A stretch of 45,924 nucleotides of DNA from the NCBI GenBank assembly GCA_902528215.1, contig CABZRR010000009.1, forward strand, positions 1-45,924, in the 5' to 3' direction. Positions 30,623 to 41,094 of this stretch are shown piece by piece. This DNA comes from an uncultured SAR86 cluster bacterium (GTDB lineage: Bacteria; Pseudomonadota; Gammaproteobacteria; Magnimaribacterales; D2472). The notes under the pieces are model-generated. The model saw only the letters and a list, made by a program, of their open reading frames with translations. It did no database searches and was not told where the DNA came from. The translations under genes and the position numbers were made by a program. How positions within the stretch are numbered: position 1 is the stretch's first letter; each line of letters begins with the position of its first letter.

Positions 30623-30641
30623 GATTAAATAATGGGGTTAT

Positions 30642-31691
30642 TTATTCTGGCTTACTTGAAAAAAAAATTGATTTGATTGTTTGTTTAAACTTTATAGGCA
30701 AAAAGTTTTTGAGTTTATTTAAAAATTTTCTTAAATATATAGATAGATCGTTTTCGAAATATTTTTTAGATTCTTTTTCTATAATTACGAGCTCATCTTC
30801 AATGTTTCCATTTGAATGATCTCTTTGAGTTAATAAAAAATGAATGTGCTCTTGCATAAAGGCTTTCTCAGATAGGATAACTTTCCAGTTTTTATCATAT
30901 GGATATCTTGATATCATAATTTTCTCACCAACTGTTTTCTTAATATACCTATTTATATTCAAAAAATACCCCTCATGATGAATATTTTTTTGTATTAAAT
31001 TAAAGTATTGTTGAATTGTATTTTTCGTCATTTCCATCATTGAACGAGTATTAATAAATAAATCAATAGATAAATCTTGAGAAAATTCAATGTTCGGAGG
31101 AATAATAATTATATCAAAGTGCTCTATATCATTTTGACAAAGAGTATCTCTATTTAAATCTGAAAAATATAAAATTTCTTTTCCCTTATTTGAGAAATAC
31201 TCATTAAGATAATAACCGGAAAGCAAATTAGCTTCTGGCAAATCAATCAAAATATATTTACATTTGTGTCTACTACAAATCATCCTTGCAAGAGATCCAT
31301 AGCCCCCACCAATTTCACAAATAACAGGATTAGAAATTTTTAATAGAACATTTTCATCTAATTTACATGCATAGTCCGCTAAAAATAGTTCGTGATAATC
31401 TATGTATTTCTTAAATATATTTACAGTATGATTTGACAGGCCAACATTTTTATCTTGCATATAAAAAAGAATTTTTTCAGCATCATGAATTTGTATAAGC
31501 TCAAAGAAAACTTCTGGTATAAATTTTTTTTCTACGGCATCATCTAAGCCTTTTGAAAGAATTTTATCTGATCTAAATCTCTCCAATACTGAGATATTCT
31601 CATTTACTGAATTAAAAAAAATATCCCTTTTTGGTTGATTGAGTTTTTTCCAGTGTTGACTTTCATCTTTTAGTAAAAAATTATTAGACAA
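30642..31691 (-). CDS. Putative sugar O-methyltransferase-like SAM protein
   Basis: The 349-residue protein has a SAM-binding motif I written as VICEIGGGYGSLARM (residues 123-137), followed by KYILIDLPEANLLSGYYL. This motif I with IDLPE is what I recall from putative sugar O-methyltransferases of the NanM-like group (TIGR04371). The remainder is AT-rich, lysine-rich and unfamiliar. The start read here is a TTG at 31691; no in-frame ATG lies between it and the divergent gene, so the exact N-terminus is uncertain. It is the first gene of a surface-glycan-type block, consistent with methylating a polysaccharide sugar. Confidence in the SAM fold is higher than in the substrate. Confidence 0.7.
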   Translation of the reverse strand: MSNNFLLKDESQHWKKLNQPKRDIFFNSVNENISVLERFRSDKILSKGLDDAVEKKFIPEVFFELIQIHDAEKILFYMQDKNVGLSNHTVNIFKKYIDYHELFLADYACKLDENVLLKISNPVICEIGGGYGSLARMICSRHKCKYILIDLPEANLLSGYYLNEYFSNKGKEILYFSDLNRDTLCQNDIEHFDIIIIPPNIEFSQDLSIDLFINTRSMMEMTKNTIQQYFNLIQKNIHHEGYFLNINRYIKKTVGEKIMISRYPYDKNWKVILSEKAFMQEHIHFLLTQRDHSNGNIEDELVIIEKESKKYFENDLSIYLRKFLNKLKNFLPIKFKQTIKSIFFSSKPE

Positions 31692-31821
31692 AATATACGA
31701 ATCTATTAGTTGAGACGAATTTTTAATGATAAGACCTCGTTTGTATTAAAAATTATACATTTGTGTAAAATATTTTATTATTTTTTCTTAAAAAAAATTC
31801 ATTTGTTTTTAAAAATATAAT

Positions 31822-33702
31822 ATGAATTATAGACCAGAAATCGACGGCCTGAGAGCAGTTGCAGTATTGCCAGTTATCCTTTTTCATGCAGGATTTTTGA
31901 TATTTGAGGGTGGTTTTGTCGGAGTAGATGTCTTTTTTGTTATAAGTGGTTTTTTGATAACAAACATAATACTTGATGAACTTAATAAGAATGAATTTTC
32001 ATTAACAGAGTTTTACGAAAGGAGAGCGAGAAGAATATTGCCTGCCTTAACAATAGTAATGATCGCATGCATTCCTTTTACATTAATTTGGTTTATGCCG
32101 GGAGACATGAAAAACTTTTCAGAAAGTTTGATATCCAGTTCGCTTTTTTTTTCAAATATTCTTTTTTGGAGAGAAAGTGGATATTTTGAAATGTCATCCG
32201 AATTGAAACCCCTTATACATACGTGGAGCTTATCAATTGAGGAACAATTTTATATTTTATTTCCATTGTTATTGATCATTCTGTGGAGATTTAGAGAGAA
32301 CATTATATTTTTTGTAATACTTATATGTTTCTTTCTAAGCTTCTCTCTTGCTCATTGGGGAGCATATAATTATCCAACTGCTTCATTTTGGCTATTACCG
32401 ACAAGAGGATGGGAACTTTTATTAGGAGTAGTGATTTCAATTTATTTGTTTCGAAATAAATTTGAGCCACCAAAGAAAATATCGCAAATTTTTAGCATTA
32501 TTGGTTTTAGTTTAATAATTTTTTCAATTTTACTTTTTAATAAAAATACTCCCTCTCCAAGCATATTTCATCTTGCTCCGACTCTTGGAGCTGGATTAAT
32601 AATTCTCTTTGCATTGCCAGGAACTTTATTAAATAAATTTTTATCAAATAAATTACTTGTAGGGATTGGTCTTACATCATATAGCCTTTATCTTATCCAC
32701 CAACCAATTTTTGCTATAACTAAATATCGTTTTAAAAGTGAAACAATTGAACTTTATATCATTCCAATTCTGGTTGTAATTTTTTTCTTAGCTTTTTTGA
32801 ATTGGAAATTCATAGAAAAACCATTCAGAAATAGATCAATGTTTTCAAGAAATCAAGTTTTTAAATATTCATTTTTAAGTATATTTTTAATTTCCTCTTT
32901 TGGAATATTTGGTGTTATTACAAATGGATTTGAGCAAAGGTTTAATGAGTATGAGAGAAAAGTTTTATTGCAATATACTGATCCTGGAAAATACGTAAAT
33001 TCAAGATTTCATAATTTTGATATCAATTTTGACGATACTGATGAAACACGAAATGTTTTAATAATAGGAGATAGTTTTGCTGAAGATCTCATTAATGCAG
33101 TATTTGAGTCAAAAATAAACAACAACATATCAATTTCAACAAAAAAGATACAAACTCATTGTGGAAATTTATTCACTAAAAGAAATTTATCGAGGTATAT
33201 CTTGCCTCAAAAAATAAAGAGTTGTAAAAGTAATTTTAATGATTCTATATTTTTATCGCGCCTAGAAAATGCTGATGAAATATGGCTAGCAGCAAGTTGG
33301 AAAAAATGGGCACTACCAATGATCCCTGAATCTATTGAAAATTATAAGAAAGTTTCTCCAAATGCTAATATCAAGGTATTTGGGCGTAAGAACTTTGGCC
33401 AAAGAAACGCTAATGAATTCATTAATTCATTTAACCTTGGTACAAAAGCACTTTTATCGAGCAAACCACTAGAGGAAGATCATATTATTATTAATGAGCT
33501 GATGAGAGAAATGATTAATAAGGAAGAATTTATCGATGTTTCTGAGTTAATTTGTAATTCAAAAACGGAATGCTCGAACACAACTCTTGACGGATTACCA
33601 ATTTCTTATGATGGAGCTCATTTAACAAAAGCAGGAGCAAAGTATTTTGGTGATAAATTAGCTGGAAAAAAATATTTTCAGTCACTGATGAATAAGCTTT
33701 AG
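31822..33702 (+). CDS. OafA-type membrane acyltransferase with C-terminal SGNH domain
   Basis: A 626-residue two-domain protein. The N-terminal half (about residues 1-370) is an acyltransferase-3 domain with roughly ten membrane segments, opening with the hallmark YRPEIDGLRAVAVLPVILFHA and GGFVGVDVFFVISGFLIT. The C-terminal periplasmic SGNH domain has the nucleophile in IIGDSFAED (near residue 416) and the Asp-x-x-His pair in YDGAHLT (Asp597, His600). Such proteins O-acetylate O-antigen or other surface glycans. No SD precedes the ATG. It converges with the FkbM gene (4-bp overlap). Substrate not determinable; the neighbouring methyltransferases fit glycan decoration. Confidence 0.92.
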   Translation: MNYRPEIDGLRAVAVLPVILFHAGFLIFEGGFVGVDVFFVISGFLITNIILDELNKNEFSLTEFYERRARRILPALTIVMIACIPFTLIWFMPGDMKNFSESLISSSLFFSNILFWRESGYFEMSSELKPLIHTWSLSIEEQFYILFPLLLIILWRFRENIIFFVILICFFLSFSLAHWGAYNYPTASFWLLPTRGWELLLGVVISIYLFRNKFEPPKKISQIFSIIGFSLIIFSILLFNKNTPSPSIFHLAPTLGAGLIILFALPGTLLNKFLSNKLLVGIGLTSYSLYLIHQPIFAITKYRFKSETIELYIIPILVVIFFLAFLNWKFIEKPFRNRSMFSRNQVFKYSFLSIFLISSFGIFGVITNGFEQRFNEYERKVLLQYTDPGKYVNSRFHNFDINFDDTDETRNVLIIGDSFAEDLINAVFESKINNNISISTKKIQTHCGNLFTKRNLSRYILPQKIKSCKSNFNDSIFLSRLENADEIWLAASWKKWALPMIPESIENYKKVSPNANIKVFGRKNFGQRNANEFINSFNLGTKALLSSKPLEEDHIIINELMREMINKEEFIDVSELICNSKTECSNTTLDGLPISYDGAHLTKAGAKYFGDKLAGKKYFQSLMNKL

Positions 33703-34577
33703 GTTTGGAGATTAAAATTAAATTCTGATGGTAAAAATAGTACATTCCTACCTATTTTACTCTCACCTTTCAGATTTTTGACTCGTTTAGCTTGATAGTT
33801 TTTGTCATCAATTAAAATGCTTTCATATCCGTAAGGGGTAAAAAGCTCGTCAAATTTTGGATATAAGTCCTTATCCAGAATTTCGCAAAGAATTATAGTC
33901 TTGTCTAGAACTATTCTTTTAATTATTAATCTAAGAAGAGATAATTCTGCTCTTTCAATATCAATTTTAATTAACGAAATCTTCATATCTGTGAGATTTT
34001 TTTGAAATAAATTATTGACATTTTTTGCTTTGCATATCATTGTTCCTGCATCTTTTTCTATGAAACTGTGATTAATTGCTGAGAAACCAGATGGGTTCTC
34101 ACCTTTAGAATTATAAAATACTAGATCTCCATCTTTATGACTTAATGCAAAATTATTGATATTGATGTTTTTAAACTTATTTGAATTTATATTTTTTTTT
34201 AACCAACTGAAGGTATTTGGATGAGGCTCATAAGTTTGTATATTTATCTTGTTATTTGCGCTGGCAGCTACCAAGGAGTAAACACCGGAGTACCCACCAA
34301 TATCTAAAACATAAGATTTTTTAGCTTCAAGGCATAATTGACTCCAAATTTTAAGACTAAATCCCTCATAATTACCAAAAATTCCAGAGTAAAAAATATC
34401 ATTACTGATTTCGTCTCTAAAATTATGAAAAGTTATCTTTGTTTTGTTAAGCGATACTGAAAAAACCCCATAAAAACCCAAAGATTTATATATGTCTCTG
34501 GACAGCTTGACATGAAAAATATTTCTCAAAAATTTTCCAAAATTTCCGGCTAAATACTTTACGAAATTTTTTATCAC
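33699..34577 (-). CDS. FkbM-family SAM-dependent methyltransferase
   Basis: The 292-residue protein has motif I YVLDIGGYSGVYSLVAAS (residues 89-106), then YEPHPNTFSWLKKNI as motif II, and the FkbM signature ISLIKIDIERAELSLL near residue 205. FkbM enzymes O-methylate sugars or polyketides; the glycan context here favours a sugar. The start is GTG at 34577. N-terminal residues are basic with no signal peptide, so it acts in the cytoplasm on a nucleotide- or lipid-linked precursor. Very AT-rich codon use, like its neighbours. Confidence 0.87.
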   Translation of the reverse strand: MIKNFVKYLAGNFGKFLRNIFHVKLSRDIYKSLGFYGVFSVSLNKTKITFHNFRDEISNDIFYSGIFGNYEGFSLKIWSQLCLEAKKSYVLDIGGYSGVYSLVAASANNKINIQTYEPHPNTFSWLKKNINSNKFKNININNFALSHKDGDLVFYNSKGENPSGFSAINHSFIEKDAGTMICKAKNVNNLFQKNLTDMKISLIKIDIERAELSLLRLIIKRIVLDKTIILCEILDKDLYPKFDELFTPYGYESILIDDKNYQAKRVKNLKGESKIGRNVLFLPSEFNFNLQT

Positions 34578-34646
34578 AATAATTTTTTAATAAATCAATT
34601 ATAATACACCATGCCAATTTACTAATTTATTTTAATTAAAGTTGAG

Positions 34647-35534
34647 ATGATAATATCTGATAAAAATAATATTTGGAATAAATGCTATCTATGTGATTCT
34701 CCATTTTTAAAAAATTTTTATAAAGAAAAGGAGATTGTTAAATGCAAAAATTGCAGTTTTGTTTTTTATCAACCCATTCCATCAAAAGAAGACCTTGATT
34801 CAGTTTATTCTAATTATGAAAGGGAAGAATACATTACTGAAAATTCTGTCGCTAAAATTAAAAAAGAGTTAGAAAAAATATTATCAACATACAATATTAA
34901 AACTATCCTAGATATTGCTTGTGGTGAATGTTATTTTTTGGATATTCTTAAAACTATTAATCCCTCATTAGAGCTTTATGCAACTGAACACATTTCCGCA
35001 AAAGAAAATGTTATCAATAAAGGTTATGGATTCATAGAGGGAGAATTTTTTCCCATAACAAATAAAAAGTTTGATTTGATAATCTTTACAGAGGCTATAG
35101 AACATATTAATGACGCTGACAATTTTCTTGCAAATGCATACGATCTTCTTAATCCAAATGGATTGATTTACATTACGACACCTAATTTTTCATCTTTAGA
35201 GAGATTATTGATGGGTAAGAATTGGGGTATGGTCGTGCCACCAGAACACCTTTCTTATTTCACGCCAAAAACTCTTAAATTTGTAATGACAAAAAATAAA
35301 TTTACAAAAAGGTTCTCTAAAACTGAAAATATTAGTATCTTTAGAATTATTCAATTCCTCAATAAGTTTAATAAAAAAAATAACTCTAAGATTTCACCTC
35401 AAAAAATATCTGACAATCTTCAAAGTGTTGCAACCTCAAATTTTTTTTTAAGATATATTAAAAAAATAATTAACATTATTTTAGATTTTCTAAACCTCGG
35501 AAGCAGTTTAAAAGCTTTATATCAGAAGAAATAA
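34647..35534 (+). CDS. Class I SAM-dependent methyltransferase with N-terminal zinc ribbon
   Basis: The 295-residue protein begins with a four-Cys zinc ribbon (C13, C16, C33, C36: CYLCDSP...CKNCSFVF), then a SAM domain with motif I ILDIACGECYFLDIL (about 85-99), FDLIIFTEAIEHINDADNF and LNPNGLIYITTPNFSSLERL. This combination, with NWGMVVPPEHLSYFTPKTL, is the Methyltransf_23-type protein common in O-antigen and capsule loci, where it alters sugar precursors. The last 50 residues are lysine-rich and may be membrane-apposed. It ends 22 bp before the convergent SGNH hydrolase, separated by a palindromic terminator candidate. Confidence 0.87.
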   Translation: MIISDKNNIWNKCYLCDSPFLKNFYKEKEIVKCKNCSFVFYQPIPSKEDLDSVYSNYEREEYITENSVAKIKKELEKILSTYNIKTILDIACGECYFLDILKTINPSLELYATEHISAKENVINKGYGFIEGEFFPITNKKFDLIIFTEAIEHINDADNFLANAYDLLNPNGLIYITTPNFSSLERLLMGKNWGMVVPPEHLSYFTPKTLKFVMTKNKFTKRFSKTENISIFRIIQFLNKFNKKNNSKISPQKISDNLQSVATSNFFLRYIKKIINIILDFLNLGSSLKALYQKK

Positions 35535-35543
35535 AATTGCTGG

Positions 35544-35563
35544 AAACTAATACCTATTAGTTT
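35544..35563. terminator. Palindromic bidirectional terminator candidate
   Basis: AAACTAAT-ACCT-ATTAGTTT is a perfect 8-bp stem with a 4-base loop (9 bp if the loop closes to 2). It sits exactly between two convergent genes and overlaps the stop codon of the minus-strand one. The stem is AT-rich and no long U-run follows, so termination would be weak. Confidence 0.4.
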
Positions 35564-36264
35564 ATATAGTTAAATTTTGAATCAATTTTTGAGACCCAAT
35601 ATCTATAACCGAGTGCATTTAGATGAATGCCGTCGTAAGTAAAGTCTTTATTAAGACCATTTTCAGATGATAGCTCACCTAAATTTAGAAAAATAATATC
35701 TTCAGCTTTACCTAAATTTTCAAGTTCTTTGTTTAGAAGGTTCACTTTAGCAACTCTGTCTGTTCCACAAATCTCTAACTGGCATTGAATTGTAGATTGA
35801 GCAATTACCACAAAGTTTTTATCTTTCAATGAACTTATAATTTTCTTATAATTTTCCACAATTCTATTTATGGATAAATTTGCATAAATATCATTAATGC
35901 CAATCATTAGAAATGCTTTTCTTGCTTTAGTAGTGTAGATAGAATCCATTCTTAAAATGACATCTTTTGTTGTATCGCCTGCTACTCCTCTGTTTGATAA
36001 TTTTTTTGATGGAAAAAAATCATTCCACTCGCCATACTCTGTGATACTGTCTCCAATTAAAACTATCTCAACTGATGGAGAAAATTTTTCAAAAATCTCA
36101 ATTCTATATTCTCTATTTCTTTCATTCAGATCCTCGTTTGCAAGCTGCTTAATAGCAAAAAGTTGTTTATAAGGAAAAAATTTATATTTACCAACGGCAA
36201 AGCCATATGAAAAAGAAAGAAAAATGATCACAAAAAATAAAGTATAAAGAAACTTACTTTTCAT
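35557..36264 (-). CDS. SGNH/GDSL-family hydrolase, membrane-anchored or exported
   Basis: The 235-residue protein has an uncleaved anchor or signal peptide (residues about 4-24), then an SGNH fold: block I IVLIGDSITEYGEW with nucleophile Ser73, block II NRGVAGDTT (Gly93), block III LMIGINDIY (Asn124), and block V YDGIHLNALGY with the Asp-x-x-His pair. All four S-G-N-H residues are present. It probably removes acetyl or acyl groups from a surface glycan or lipid in the periplasm, the reverse of the OafA-type gene 2 kb away. It lies at the boundary between the AT-rich glycan block and guaC. Confidence 0.88.
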   Translation of the reverse strand: MKSKFLYTLFFVIIFLSFSYGFAVGKYKFFPYKQLFAIKQLANEDLNERNREYRIEIFEKFSPSVEIVLIGDSITEYGEWNDFFPSKKLSNRGVAGDTTKDVILRMDSIYTTKARKAFLMIGINDIYANLSINRIVENYKKIISSLKDKNFVVIAQSTIQCQLEICGTDRVAKVNLLNKELENLGKAEDIIFLNLGELSSENGLNKDFTYDGIHLNALGYRYWVSKIDSKFNYIN

Positions 36265-36309
36265 GAGCTATTTCACTCCAGGTAAATAATTAACGAAAAC
36301 AATTAGAAA

Positions 36310-37302
36310 CTATTCTTCCCCAAAAATTTTATTATGTGTATTATTGACTCTTACAAAAGTTGTGCATTTAGAAAGTGTTTTAATCTTATTTGCCCCAACA
36401 TAAGTACACGCAGATCGAATGCCGCTCAAAATATCTTTTATTGTATCGTCAGCTTTACCCCGATATTTTACAACTACTGTTTTACCCTCTGTGCCTCTAT
36501 ATGCATTATGATTACCATGCTTATTCATAGCAGATTCAGAAGCCATACCATAGAATTTCATAAATCCATCCTCAACCTTTCCTTTGCATTCATCATGACC
36601 AGCAAGCATTCCACCTATCATCACAAAATCAGCACCGCCGGCAAAAGCTTTAACAATATCTCCGGAACTGGTGCAACCACCGTCAGCAATTATATGTGCA
36701 TTAAGACCATGGGCTGCATCTGCGCATTCAATTACTGCGCTTAACTGAGGATAACCAATTCCAGTTTTTATTCTAGTGGTGCATACAGAACCAGGACCAA
36801 TACCAACTTTTACTATGTCCGCACCAGCAAGAATTAACTCTTGTGTCATATCAGCAGTAACTACATTACCAGCTATAATTGTGGCGTTTGGACACTTTTG
36901 TCTTAATTTTTTGACAGCATCAACAAATCTAATGGTATACCCATTTGCAACATCAAGACCTATGAAACTACCTGAGGTTTTAGACAATTTAGAAATATCA
37001 TCGATTCCACCTAGCCAGCAAATGTTTGACTTTTTTTTATTGAATTTTTTAGGATTTTTATTTAAATAATGCCTTGCAGGGCAAGTAATTAAATTATATT
37101 TAGACAACACATCATGCATTGCTGGAGTGCCTACTGTGTCCATGTTGGCTGACATGATAGGAATACCAGTCCATTTTTCTTTACTCCAAAGGAAATTATG
37201 AGTTCTCTCAAGATCTACTTCTCCTCTTGAACTCATTGTGGATCTCTTTGGTCTGATTAAAACATCAGAATAATCTAACTTTATATCTTCATTTACAAGC
37301 AA
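36310..37302 (-). CDS. guaC: GMP reductase
   Basis: Reduces GMP to IMP with NADPH, returning guanine nucleotides to the common pool. The 330 residues are a little shorter than E. coli GuaC (347). The start is TTG at 37302, and the N-terminus ([23 protein letters not shown]) aligns with E. coli GuaC from residue 1. The catalytic Cys174 is in [21 protein letters not shown], followed by [33 protein letters not shown]. No CBS domains are present, distinguishing it from GuaB. It lies on the same strand as guaA, directly behind the cassette array; the nearest repeat ends about 100 bp upstream. Confidence 0.95.
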
Positions 37303-37525
37303 AATATATAACCCTAAATAATCTCAATTAATATTATCAAACATTGCTTTGATCAGTTAGCTTTTTAGATAAAATCTTTGAATTCGAACTAATTTGTTCT
37401 TATTCACTCCCATTCAATAGTAGAATGCCTCTGAAACCTTTTAAATATTAAATTCTCAAAATGGTGTGTCACATTTGAGACATACGATGATTTCATGTCA
37501 AACTTAATAAGGTTTATGTAACTTA
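37303..37525. other. Non-coding junction between guaC and the cassette array
   Basis: The 223-bp gap holds R3 (37404-37438) and its repeat arms; 37303-37400 presumably contains the guaC leader and any promoter of its own. I see no ORF, tRNA or clear GC-rich terminator here. If no terminator exists, guaC would receive read-through from guaA and the cassettes. Confidence 0.6.
37404..37438 (-). repeat. Array repeat R3: guaA 3'-end copy plus GGTTTCAG block
   Basis: On the plus strand, 37404-37423 differs from the guaA 3' end (39511-39530) at 1 of 20 positions. In guaA sense it even encodes STIEWE-stop. The adjacent CCTCTGAAACC (37428-37438) is shared with R1 and nearly with R2, but not with guaA. 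Imperfect direct repeats (TGTCACAT at 37467-37474, TGAGACAT at 37476-37483) and a TCTCAAA/TTTGAGA inverted repeat lie just beyond. This is the distal end of the array, facing guaC. Confidence 0.85.
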
Positions 37526-38131
37526 TCATAAACTTCTTGCAAATTTCCTTACTTTTTGCATGTTTTTTTCAAAGTCAGTTTTTTTCATATTAGGAAGTAC
37601 CGAATAAAATCTTAAATACTTTGTCTTTAATCCTCCAGATTGAAATATTGATTTTTTCAATCTTCTGTAAGGAATATTATCAAAGAAAGAAAAGTTGAAA
37701 TAACTTACCATTGGTCCTCCATAAGTCATTGAAACAATCCCAATTTTACTTTTCATTGCTCCAGCAACAGGATATCCATAATTCCCAAAGAACTTACTAT
37801 CAGGTAATAATGATTTGTAAGAAAAAAACCATGTTGGGTGAAGAACCCAATCAATCCAGTTTTCTAGGACCCCACTCATTCTTAAGTTATGACAAGCACT
37901 CATTAAAAACATAACATCAGCATCCTCAAGTCTATTTCTATAATCCGTTACTAACTTTGGTGGAGGATTTATGTCACTTCTATAAAATGGTAATTGTTCT
38001 TCTTCATCAAATAAATTTATCAAATCTATTTCATGTCCAATTTTTTTTGCTTCATCAATAAAGGTATCTCTAATGGATGCATTAAATGAATCTTTAGTAT
38101 TGTAATGACCGAAAATTATACAAATTTTCAT
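37526..38131 (-). CDS. Flavodoxin-fold NAD(P)H oxidoreductase (cassette C)
   Basis: A 201-residue protein of the NAD(P)H:quinone reductase/modulator-of-drug-activity flavodoxin-like family. I start at the ATG at 38131 (MKICIIFGHYNTKDSFNASI); a longer reading to 38182 is just the R2 repeat translated. FMN/FAD phosphate binding is by FGHYNTKDSFNASI, the flavin contact by FLMSACHNLRMSGVLENWIDWVL, and MTYGGPMVSYFNF follows. The ATG lies immediately after the R2 repeat (GGGAATAAG-ATG), so repeat sequence provides the SD-like element. It is the third gene of the guaA cassette array, in guaA orientation. Likely a two-electron quinone or electrophile reductase. Confidence 0.87.
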   Translation of the reverse strand: MKICIIFGHYNTKDSFNASIRDTFIDEAKKIGHEIDLINLFDEEEQLPFYRSDINPPPKLVTDYRNRLEDADVMFLMSACHNLRMSGVLENWIDWVLHPTWFFSYKSLLPDSKFFGNYGYPVAGAMKSKIGIVSMTYGGPMVSYFNFSFFDNIPYRRLKKSIFQSGGLKTKYLRFYSVLPNMKKTDFEKNMQKVRKFARSL

Positions 38132-38132
38132 C

Positions 38133-38167
38133 TTATTCCCACTCAGCAAAACAATGCCCTGAAACCC
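38133..38167 (-). repeat. Array repeat R2 (degenerate core plus GGTTTCAG block)
   Basis: The first 13 bases (38133-38145) match R1 at 12 positions (TTATTCCCACTCA against TCATTCCCACTCA); the inner part has diverged. CCCTGAAACCC (38157-38167) corresponds to the block shared by R1 and R3. It separates cassette B from cassette C and abuts the cassette C start codon. Confidence 0.75.
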
Positions 38168-38213
38168 TTGATACAAAGGCATCTAAAAAAAGTTTGTATC
38201 TACTTTGTATCAA
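38168..38213. repeat. Recombinase-arm-like direct and inverted repeats at R2
   Basis: TTGATACAAAG (38168-38178) is perfectly inverted as CTTTGTATCAA (38203-38213). TTTGTATC also repeats directly at 38193-38200 and 38204-38211, an 11-bp period. Repeats of this size, period and position next to an attachment core are typical of tyrosine-recombinase binding sites. A weak hairpin terminator for cassette B is the alternative; there is no U-run after the stem. Confidence 0.6.
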
Positions 38214-38226
38214 TTTTTAATCTTTT

Positions 38227-38904
38227 TCATTGAAATTTTGCACCTTTTTGTAAGTTGTGTCTGGCACAAAGTAATTGGATATTTGTTGCAACCTTAGAAG
38301 ATCCTCCTTTTGAATACGGCAAAATGTGATCAAAGTGCAGATTGTCTTTTGATCCACAAATTCGACATTCTCCTTTATCCCTTTCGTAAACTTCTCTCTG
38401 AACTTCTCCAGGTATTTGTCTATTGTGGAGCAGATCAATATAGTCAGGATTTTCATCAATCTCATTTGTATTTGGTTTGAGGAGAAATTTAAAAACATTT
38501 CTCTTCCCATCAAATTTGTTAAAACCATCAATCAAGTCATAAAAACCCATATCAACCCAGACACCTTTTCTTATTTTCCTATAAACTTTTACGAGAGCAG
38601 GTTCTCTTTTTCCTTCCTTAAAATTATCTGCTGCTTGCATAAATTTTCCATTCTCAGTTAATGTCCCTGTTTTAGTTGCTATTGGTTGATCAACTTCTTT
38701 TTTGTTGTAACTATCATTTCGTGGGGCATCATGTCCTTCATATTCAATAACTCCATCTTCAAGCATGCTGTCGTTATAAGGTGCATTTTTTTCTGTAGAC
38801 ATCAATACGATTGAATAAGATTTCTTTATGGCAAAATTCATACCCTTTTGAACTTGGATACCTCCTTCGTTCATAACAAGTTGAGGATAGGATATTACTT
38901 TCAT
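38227..38904 (-). CDS. HNH endonuclease with SRA/YDG-like N-terminal domain (cassette B)
   Basis: The 225-residue protein has a C-terminal canonical HNH nuclease: zinc cysteines C180/C183 (CRICGS) and C213/H216 (CARHN), the metal-site H190-F-D192-H193 in LHFDHILPYSKGG, and Asn208. Residues about 30-140 resemble an SRA/YDG modified-base-reading domain: VLMSTEKNAPYNDSMLEDGVIEYEGHDA, an N/F-rich middle, then ALVKVYRKIRKGVWVDMGFYDLIDG. This layout suggests an McrA-like, modification-dependent restriction enzyme with no partner methylase, i.e. phage defence. The N-terminal call is by pattern only. It is a single-gene insert between repeats R1 and R2, in guaA orientation. Confidence 0.82.
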   Translation of the reverse strand: MKVISYPQLVMNEGGIQVQKGMNFAIKKSYSIVLMSTEKNAPYNDSMLEDGVIEYEGHDAPRNDSYNKKEVDQPIATKTGTLTENGKFMQAADNFKEGKREPALVKVYRKIRKGVWVDMGFYDLIDGFNKFDGKRNVFKFLLKPNTNEIDENPDYIDLLHNRQIPGEVQREVYERDKGECRICGSKDNLHFDHILPYSKGGSSKVATNIQLLCARHNLQKGAKFQ

Positions 38905-38929
38905 AAGTTATTGTTTTTATCTTCTTTTT

Positions 38930-38974
38930 TCATTCCCACTCAATAGTTGCACAAAATACCACCTCTGAAACCCC
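38930..38974 (-). repeat. Array repeat R1: guaA 3'-end copy plus GGTTTCAG block
   Basis: 38930-38949 matches the guaA 3' end at 18 of 20 positions and in guaA sense encodes ATIEWE-stop, the same last six residues as GuaA. CCTCTGAAACCCC (38962-38974) is the block shared with R2 and R3. It separates cassette A from cassette B. Confidence 0.85.
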
Positions 38975-39013
38975 TACTGCGACTGTGTTTCCGAGTGCCT
39001 TTTTTGTGTTTTG

Positions 39014-39037
39014 CCACTTTGTCAAACTTTGCAAAGT
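39014..39037. repeat. Recombinase-arm-like repeats at R1
   Basis: ACTTTG repeats at 39016-39021 and 39026-39031 (10-bp period), and ACTTTGCAAAGT (39026-39037) is a perfect 12-bp palindrome. It lies 40-65 bp from the R1 block, as the TTTGTATC repeats do from R2. ACTTTG also occurs at R2 (38202-38207). Confidence 0.5.
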
Positions 39038-39056
39038 AGACATCTTATTTCTTTCA

Positions 39057-39503
39057 TTATTCCTCTGTAGTTGCCTGACTGTAAAATGCAGAACAAGTTG
39101 ATAAATCATCAATCATCCAATCAGTAAAATATGTTCCTGTTTTTGCGTAGTTTTCATTCATGATGCTTAAATACTCATTTGCAATTGCAGATATAGACTC
39201 AACTGCAATTCTTTGATTTTCTTCTGCTGAGTCATTTGGTTGAATTGTCTGTATGACTGCTATTGCCATTTGACTGAATGTTTCCCCAACTTTGGAACCT
39301 CTTTCGTATAAGTCTTTTATGTTCTCTGAAAAGTGTGCCATATTGAAGTTAATTGCCCCACATCTCGCACTTACATAAAAAAGCACATTTGGTTCACTCA
39401 TGTTTTGTTCTTTCATATACTCATTCAATGGAATCATTTTCACTTCAGCAAAAAGTGGAGTTGATAAAAATATAATGAGTAATAGTTTTTTATTTCTTGT
39501 CAT
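39057..39503 (-). CDS. Exported protein of unknown function (cassette A)
   Basis: I do not recognise the family. The 148-residue protein starts with a clear Sec signal peptide (TRNKKLLLIIFLSTPLFA, likely cleavage after Ala19). The mature part is mostly predicted helical, acidic, and has exactly two cysteines (Cys48 in SARCGA and Cys137 in LSTCSAF), which could form a disulfide in the periplasm. The ATG lies 7 bases after the guaA stop, so it is almost certainly transcribed and possibly translated with guaA; GGGA within the repeat core serves as SD-like sequence. Its 3' end overlaps a short frame that reads through R1 and is not thought to be a gene. It is the first cassette of the array. Confidence 0.8.
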   Translation of the reverse strand: MTRNKKLLLIIFLSTPLFAEVKMIPLNEYMKEQNMSEPNVLFYVSARCGAINFNMAHFSENIKDLYERGSKVGETFSQMAIAVIQTIQPNDSAEENQRIAVESISAIANEYLSIMNENYAKTGTYFTDWMIDDLSTCSAFYSQATTEE

Positions 39504-39510
39504 TTATTTT

Positions 39511-39530
39511 TCATTCCCATTCAATAGTAG
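39511..39530 (-). repeat. Array repeat R0: the guaA 3' end itself (presumed attachment site)
   Basis: TCATTCCCATTCAATAGTAG on the plus strand encodes the C-terminal TIEWE-stop of GuaA and is the master copy of R1-R3. The 3' end of guaA is an established integration site for genomic islands, so this is the expected attB-type position. Insertion here leaves the GuaA reading frame intact. Confidence 0.8.
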
Positions 39531-41094
39531 CTGGTGGTTTGCTTGAAATATCATAAACAACCCTACTAACATTTTCTAACTCATTGACAATACGATTTGA
39601 AACATGCGCTAAAAATTCATGTGGCAGCTTGGCCCAATCAGCAGTCATAAAATCTACTGTTTCAACTGCTCTAATTGCTATAACATCTGCATATCTTCTT
39701 TCGTCACCAACTACTCCAACAGATTTAATGGGAAGGTAAGCACAAAAAGCCTGACTTACTTGATCATATAAATTGGCCTTAATAAGCTCTTCGATAAAAA
39801 TCGCATCTGCGTTTTGCAAGGTAGTGACTTTATCTTTACAAATTTCACCTAAAATTCTTACGCCTAATCCAGGCCCAGGAAAAGGATGACGATCAAGCAT
39901 ATTTGAGGGAAGGCCTAGTTGAGCTCCCATTTTCCTTACTTCATCTTTAAACAAATCCCTTAATGGCTCTACAAGCTCCATTTTCATATCTTCTGGCAAT
40001 CCACCAACATTATGGTGAGATTTAATGACCCGCGCCTCTTTTGATCCAGATTCTGATGATTCGATTACATCTGGATAAATTGTACCCTGAGCTAAATAGT
40101 TTATCTCATCCTTAAGTTTTGCCGCTTCATTATCAAATATATCTATAAATGTTCTTCCTATAACTTTTCTTTTTTGCTCGGGCTCAATAATACCTTTAAG
40201 ATGCCTATAGAAAATCTTCTTTGCGTCAACAACAATGAGATTTAAGTCCATTTTCTCTTTAAATAAACTTTCAACATCCTTTGCTTCATTTTTACGAAGC
40301 AATCCATTATCAACAAATACACATATCAGATTTCTTCCTATGGCTTTATCCAGTAACATTGCCGTAACTGACGAATCAACTCCCCCAGACAAACCCAATA
40401 AAACTCTTTGATCACCGACTCTTTCTTTGATTTCTTGAATTCTATGTTCAATGAGATCTTCCATGCTCCATTGAGGAGTAGATTCACATATCTTTAATAT
40501 AAAATTTTCTAATATAGCTCCTCCTTTATCGGTATGAGTCACCTCTGGATGAAACTGCAAAGCATAGATAGGTTTTTCAATATGCTCCATAGCTGCTACC
40601 GGGGCCGAGGAAGTCGAGGCTATTAAATTAAATTCATCAGGAAGAGTTGAAACATTATCTCCATGGCTCATCCAAACATCGATCAGGGAGCCAGAGCCAA
40701 AGCCGTCAAAAAGAGGTGAAGTTTTTTCTATGCTTATTTGGGCGCGTCCAAATTCTTTTGACGTTGAAGAGGAAACCTGGCCACCAAATTGCTCTGCAAG
40801 TGTTTGCATTCCATAGCAAATACCTAAAAGTGGAATATTTAACTCAAATATTATCTCAGGAATTCTTGGAGTATTTGAATCGGTAACTGATTCAGGACCA
40901 CCAGAAAGGATTACACCTTTAAGATTCAAGGATTTAATTTTTTCTAAAGAAACGTCCCAAGGAAGAATTACTGAATAAACATTAAAGTCTCTTACTCTTC
41001 TTGCAATAAGTTGTGTATATTGTGAGCCGAAGTCTAATACTAAAATCGTATCAATATTTTTTTGATCTAAAGAGAGATTGCCAGAATTGGTCAT
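39511..41094 (-). CDS. guaA: GMP synthase (glutamine-hydrolysing)
   Basis: Converts XMP to GMP with ATP and glutamine. The 527 residues match E. coli GuaA (525). The class I glutamine amidotransferase domain has Cys93 in GICYGMQ and His182/Glu184 in FHPEVTH. The ATP pyrophosphatase domain has the P-loop LSGGVDSS (235-242). The C-terminal dimerisation domain contains [16 protein letters not shown] and ends in KPPATIEWE. All catalytic residues are intact. Its last 20 bp form the R0 copy of a repeat that recurs three times downstream, so the stop region doubles as an integration site. The next gene downstream starts 7 bp after its stop. Confidence 0.98.

Follow-up and report, generated by a model that had tools for sequence, protein, structure and literature searches.

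The integrase of GIsul2, whose site in guaA is GAGTGGGA, transfers a unit without integrase (CR2-sul2) from one att site to another in recA- E. coli (PMC9376610). GIsul2 and CR2-sul2 are an experimental precedent for integrase-less passengers. Further systems that invite comparison with the locus described here are the CIMEs formed by tandem accretion (PMC5704250), integron cassettes and CALINs (PMC11389934), and the tycheposons of marine bacteria (PMC10872708). Our search of the literature found no paper linking SAR86 and guaA in such a manner.

SAR86 bacteria are abundant in the surface ocean and have small genomes. How such small-genome ocean cells gain genes is poorly known. Our comparison of sequences makes it very probable that members of this order carry tandem mobile cassettes, mostly of one gene and without integrase, which a family of lambda-type (arm-binding) tyrosine integrases places at the 3' end of guaA. 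The row behind guaA looks like a shelf on which genes are swapped, with a recombinase that in most cases is supplied from another place.

The window, the whole stretch of 45,924 nucleotides that we analysed, is contig C9 in a MAG from the SAR86 order that measures 1.18 Mb and is 81% complete. Its guaA gene (39511..41094, minus strand, as are all features below) encodes GMP synthase, with the Pfam domains GATase and GMP_synt_C, and provides the attachment site with its 3' end. The att core of the intact gene (39511..39528) is ACTATTGAATGGGAATGA, and exchange maps to TGGGA. Three partial copies of the guaA 3' end follow, with cores at 38930-38947, 38133-38150 and 37404-37421, and each terminates one small unit. 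Cassette 1 (38930..39510, 581 bp from core to core) carries ORF148 (39057..39503), whose 148-aa product matches no Pfam family and which is akin to ORF144 of the integrase-bearing element of genome G124 (71% at the nucleotide level over 406 bp). Its att site, R1 (38930..39037), joins the core to GGGGTTTCAGAGG and a CAAAGT repeat at 10 bp, and matches our att model with 46 bits. Cassette 2 (38133..38929, 797 bp) encodes a 225-aa HNH endonuclease-domain protein (38227..38904; Pfam HNH, 2.4e-8), and its site R2 (38133..38218; 56.5 bits) has an inner GGGTTTCAGG and the 11-bp repeat arm GATACAAAGTAGATACAAAC. Cassette 3 (37404..38132, 729 bp) is about 84% identical in nucleotides to stretches in two other sequences, L164 and L166. 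It encodes a flavodoxin-fold oxidoreductase (37526..38131; Pfam Flavodoxin_2, 5.5e-19) with counterparts 90-94% identical in amino acids behind guaA in other genera; the likely start is the ATG 2 bp past the stop codon of the core, the listed start of the ORF being 38182. Its site R3 (37404..37486; 44 bits) includes GGTTTCAGAGGCATTCT and a decayed 11-bp arm, ATGTCTCAAATGTGACACA.

Each unit of the window is bounded by cores at both ends and lacks an integrase, the configuration of a CIME. As the earlier note on this DNA had stated, no recombinase gene lies in the array. The units have no tyrosine integrase of their own and are therefore non-autonomous. The stretch from guaA to a nitroreductase-tadA-xthA block (30623-39510) is hypervariable among relatives, with lengths of about 1 to 19 kb, and is rich in genes of surface-sugar type. 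The window's own genome also has a lone att-like site far from guaA (G000:C12:10062-10139, in L151; 35 bits), adjoining an enoyl-CoA-hydratase-like gene and a CoA-binding gene.

The short repeats beside the cores had been proposed to be binding sites of tyrosine recombinases, and we located every one of the named words in the window. At R2, TTTGTATC occurs at 38193-38200 and 38204-38211, with a period of 11. Its inverted partner GATACAAA (38170-38177) is present, but it is not an arm; its position is that of the inner inverted repeat AAACCC...GGGTTT, which is conserved. At R1, ACTTTG is indeed repeated (39016-39021 and 39026-39031, period 10) and the palindrome ACTTTGCAAAGT (39026-39037) exists, but the latter is by itself within chance. 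At R3, the words TGTCACAT (37467-37474) and TGAGACAT (37476-37483) are found, although the 9-bp offset quoted for them was wrong and the true period is 11 (GTGTCA); the pair TCTCAAA (37454-37460) and TTTGAGA (37474-37480) is also there, but the R3 pairs by themselves do not exceed chance. When the best 9-nt repeat of each arm region was compared with dinucleotide shuffles, we obtained P=0.028 for R2 (period 11), P=0.078 for R1 (period 10), and P=0.34 for R3 (period 11). Since only R2 exceeds chance, the window alone scarcely supports the existence of arms. For R1 and R3, words typical of AT-rich intergenic DNA, with no role for a recombinase, might seem a sufficient explanation. The sites of relatives make this hardly credible.

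For 40 genomes from the family, we compared the sequences that follow guaA and listed the guaA-like tails. Secondary tails recur 0.5-5 kb behind guaA and have flanks in common. The att model, a sequence model of 98 positions built from 17 of these secondary tails, matches 91 of the 203 genomes of the order (E 1e-4). In 365 Gammaproteobacteria from outside the order, sampled evenly across the class, it has no match (E 1e-5), which argues against a fortuitous effect of composition. The resulting survey includes 103 sites. They delimit 89 cassettes with a median length of 1215 bp, which lack integrases, mostly have one gene, and lie in tandem on the guaA 3' end. Toward the core, a site consists of an 11-bp direct repeat (such as GTTACACGAAAGTTACACG, CTTGTAAACTACTTGTAAAC or GATACAAAGTAGATACAAAC), an imperfect AAACCC...GGGTTT inverted repeat, and ACTATTGAGTGGGARTRA. 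Of 102 arms, 73 have a repeat at 11 bp (8/9 or better), a count that is partly ascertained because the model came from arm-bearing sites. Shuffled sequences give about 1%, and at periods 9, 10, 12 and 13 the count is 0 or 1. Yet, when sites were picked by their core only, the repeat was present in 50 of 78, with 0 at the same four other periods. Measured from the core, the arm repeats fall into two registers that differ by about 11 bp. At their 5' ends, 24 of the 89 cassettes have an AAACCC-type motif (control 1.3%), 18 have an 11-bp repeat (control 0.7%), and 14 have both arms; most cassettes, including all three of the window, lack 5' arms. The arm words of the two ends agree in ten distinct pairs, better than in any of 2000 permutations. 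Chance predicts neither this agreement nor the prominence of a single period.

These comparisons uphold the proposal that a tyrosine-recombinase core at the 3' end of guaA is flanked by arm-type sites, formed by the repeats. Neither of the two outcomes named in the earlier note as speaking against it was observed: integrases adjacent to guaA occur in relatives, and such repeats recur at homologous junctions. Sites of the R2 and R3 types have clean 11-bp repeats in relatives. The R3 arm (GTGACACA) reads ATGACACAAATGTGACACA elsewhere and is intact in L056, L160 and L167; in the window its first copy, now ATGTCTCA, is decayed. The R1 type has a spacer 8 bp longer than the other types, with its CAAAGT repeat at 10 bp, and the 105-bp R1 module is 93-94% identical in L052, L214, L215 and L221, from three other families. 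In the first two it sits behind an unrelated cargo ORF, and therefore recombination modules and cargo mix. The window thus has the arm repeats of guaA elements, clean in R2, decayed in R3, and as a 10-bp variant in R1.

The survey also revealed some peculiar sites. One unit (L026, 1696-1835) is an empty cassette: it has arm repeats, but its 139 bp are too short to hold a gene. Contigs often stop right at att sites (G059:C16, G056:C12, G147:C70, G153:C20), as expected where strains differ or repeats break the assembly, and arrays are therefore probably undercounted. Genome G025 has weak matches to the att model (L153). Attachment also takes place at a second location, where a sequence mimicking the guaA tail lies downstream of a D-hydroxyacid-dehydrogenase-like gene in L152 (G019:C1), L155 (G001:C5), L156 (G017:C2) and L157 (G002:C47). 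The mimic of G017 is a 19-codon ORF, MIGIIYDSSSKPMVTIEWE followed by a stop, and that of G019 bears its own cassette array.

Where could the recombinase come from? We found five integrase-bearing elements at guaA in relatives, in genomes G166, G124 and G107, in UBA7415, and in a SAR92 MAG. Four of them, two from the SAR86 order and those of UBA7415 and the SAR92 MAG, have their own 11-bp arm word; no clear 11-bp word was seen in G107. The 424-aa integrase (P0001) of G166, a genome with the same sequence as L245, lies directly behind the guaA core and has arms GTTGTAAAGATGTTGTAAAG. Its relatives in the SAR92 MAG and UBA7415, with 85-86% identity, are also behind guaA and have the arm word of G166. 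More distant integrases stand behind guaA in G124 (37%) and G107 (30%), each followed by a serine recombinase. The 5.5-kb element of G124 is bounded on either side by CATACAAACT arms, and beyond it lie cassettes without integrase that bear other arm words. In a contig titled Flavobacteriales, which is possibly misbinned (L248), an integrase-less acyltransferase cassette and the first 40 residues of an integrase of this kind lie in tandem, both with the arm word TTGTAAAGATG. A cassette of G087 also bears this word, which is that of G166, although no relative of P0001 was detected in that genome.

The integrases of guaA thus own distinct words, GTTGTAAAG (G166, UBA7415, SAR92) versus CATACAAACT (G124), in line with the earlier suggestion that differing words reflect different recombinases. 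Accordingly, R1, R2 and R3 have unlike words because the various guaA integrases have the core in common but not the arm words. The R2 word resembles that of the G124 element, and no integrase with the words of R1 or R3 was found. As to the claim that mobility must be in trans or lost, integrase-less cassettes of this kind do move, and the units of R1 and R3, which have no matching integrase among those found, may be either mobile in trans or now inactive.

The three guaA integrases that we checked all match integrase families (Phage_integrase, phrog_1). Against NCBIfam models, none of the three scored as an integron integrase above the cut-off, and we rejected an integron. The guaA integrases have a Tyr where most tyrosine recombinases have the His of HxxRH, the motif of P0001 being YSCRHY near residue 371. 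P0001 had no relative in a plasmid collection at E 1e-3, one weak match among phages, and no PDB relative by sequence; its AlphaFold model was unusable (pLDDT 36). When we scanned viral contigs for the patterns of the core, the arms and the integrase, the only matches were unrelated guaA phages or due to chance.

The search for tyrosine recombinases in the window's own genome, which the earlier note had advised, gave a single Phage_integrase gene, of Xer size, in this 81%-complete assembly; it was in relatives that guaA integrases with 11-bp arms appeared. Most genomes of the family have exactly two Xer-like recombinases and no others. Where a third tyrosine recombinase occurs, as it does in 11 genomes from the family, it is not at guaA. 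An HMM based on Xer missed the divergent guaA integrase of G124, which the search with P0001 recovered. Since most genomes have no others, the near-universal XerC and XerD might be thought to move the cassettes, in the manner of dif modules. We regard this as very unlikely. The dif site of the genus, CGCATAATATATATTATGTTAAAT, has nothing in common with the GAGTGGGA core, the cassettes have phased arm repeats, and dedicated integrases with similar arms exist. To our knowledge, Xer proteins have no arm-binding domain.

Mobility is indicated by near-identical cassettes beside divergent copies of guaA. A 571-bp cassette is 99.65-99.8% identical in G020 and G047 (family f1) and in G172 and G173 (f3), while the last 378-409 bp of guaA at these four loci show an identity of 69-72%. 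Five further genomes have the 451-bp ORF of this cassette with 95-100% identity and, together with the four complete copies, span all four families of the order. Other pairs of cassettes show the same contrast: 94.6% for the cassette vs 67.5% for guaA in G090/G160, 99.0% vs 68.7% in G141/G114, and 96.2% vs 76% in G088/G087. We conclude that integrase-less cassettes have recently moved between families. These genomes are MAGs and misbinning is possible, though guaA flanks that are specific to each host speak against this.

The junctions of the 571-bp cassette locate the exchange. At its 5' end, bases are host-specific up to GAR and constant from TGGGAGTAA, and the 3' end shows the reverse. This alignment places the exchange in TGGGA, as in the GIsul2 site, and at these junctions in relatives the guaA 3' end is the core, with exchange within GAGTGGGA. 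Homologous recombination at guaA and other flanks could in principle spread cassettes too, and tail replacement may also occur, as suggested by the displaced tails of G023 and G104. But the boundary is fixed at TGGGA, the flanks diverge by about 30%, and cassettes also occupy a second site that has merely a mimic of the guaA tail, making this mechanism extremely unlikely as the alternative to site-specific recombination. The displaced tails themselves (L018 in G023, 1489-1713; L050 in G104, 5-295) are longer guaA 3' ends of 225-290 bp next to the intact copy of guaA. They look as though the native tail had been exchanged for a foreign one.

One might instead see the units as remnants of guaA islands that lost their integrase, like CIMEs, in an array that is now immobile. 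The decayed arm of R3, the missing 5' arms, and the resemblance of ORF148 to a gene of the G124 integrase element fit this idea. Decay in place cannot, however, yield integrase-less units of equal length and 95-99.8% identity across genera and families beside divergent guaA genes. Because cassettes of fixed length recur, decay alone is disfavoured, and we consider it unlikely.

Mobile cassettes placed at guaA by arm-binding integrases would work as follows. A cassette consists of one ORF, or a few, and a 3' module made of 11-bp arms, the inner AAACCC...GGGTTT, and a copy of the guaA tail with the TGGGA exchange point. The integrase, encoded by an element already at this site or delivered from outside, would bind the arm words and the core and recombine a circular cassette with the guaA tail. 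Strand exchange would rebuild the last codons of guaA and put the new ORF directly behind it, in the same direction. The integrases are encoded by rarer elements at this site, two of which also hold a serine recombinase, and these elements have the same att architecture, several integrases sharing one core and differing in arm words. We infer the action in trans of guaA integrases on cassettes, the competence of one-armed sites for recombination, and the route of cassette DNA between cells. Among the 68 first ORFs detected, 36 begin no more than 60 bp from the core, and for 21 the distance is at most 15 bp; this proximity makes expression with guaA plausible.

A fixed and searchable cassette site should allow gene gain and loss to be counted directly in wild populations, and our results suggest that small integrase-less cassettes can spread without integrons. 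We give even chances to a broader proposal: that the SAR86 order has a gene-capture platform independent of integrons, in which guaA stands in for attI and a single core is used by several lineages of integrases, each recognising other arm words. The one-gene cassettes, whose 3' modules would be interchangeable, would form a common pool that circulates among families, and they would be expressed behind a housekeeping gene.

Overall, the locus resembles several known systems and differs from each. It shares with GIsul2 and other guaA islands the gene end, the core, a tyrosine integrase at guaA, and an integrase-less unit bounded by att cores (PMC9376610), but GIsul2 is a 15-kb island with an integrase, whereas SAR86 units are mostly 0.4-2 kb, integrase-less and in tandem. 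In prophage-like contigs at guaA (L117, L119), the core is likewise accompanied by arm repeats of 11 bp, for example CGTACTAAAATCGTACTA; yet they are phage contigs instead of cassettes, and the integrase-like ORF of L119 is on the other strand. CIMEs formed by accretion also lack integrases, keep their att sites and accumulate in tandem at a gene 3' end (PMC5704250), but in the SAR86 order the units are single-gene packets of conserved length that have spread between families. Tycheposons are cargo elements of tyrosine recombinases in streamlined aquatic plankton too, but measure 4-200 kb and target tRNA genes (PMC10872708), and the target here is guaA. Finally, integron cassettes and CALINs also associate a gene with a recombination site, with sites in one orientation, tandem arrays, and an integrase that is often absent (PMC11389934). 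The SAR86 units differ from them by targeting guaA instead of attI, by their phage-like arm repeats, and by integrases that are not called integron integrases. Our best reading is that the system is integron-like in its effect, yet is not an integron.
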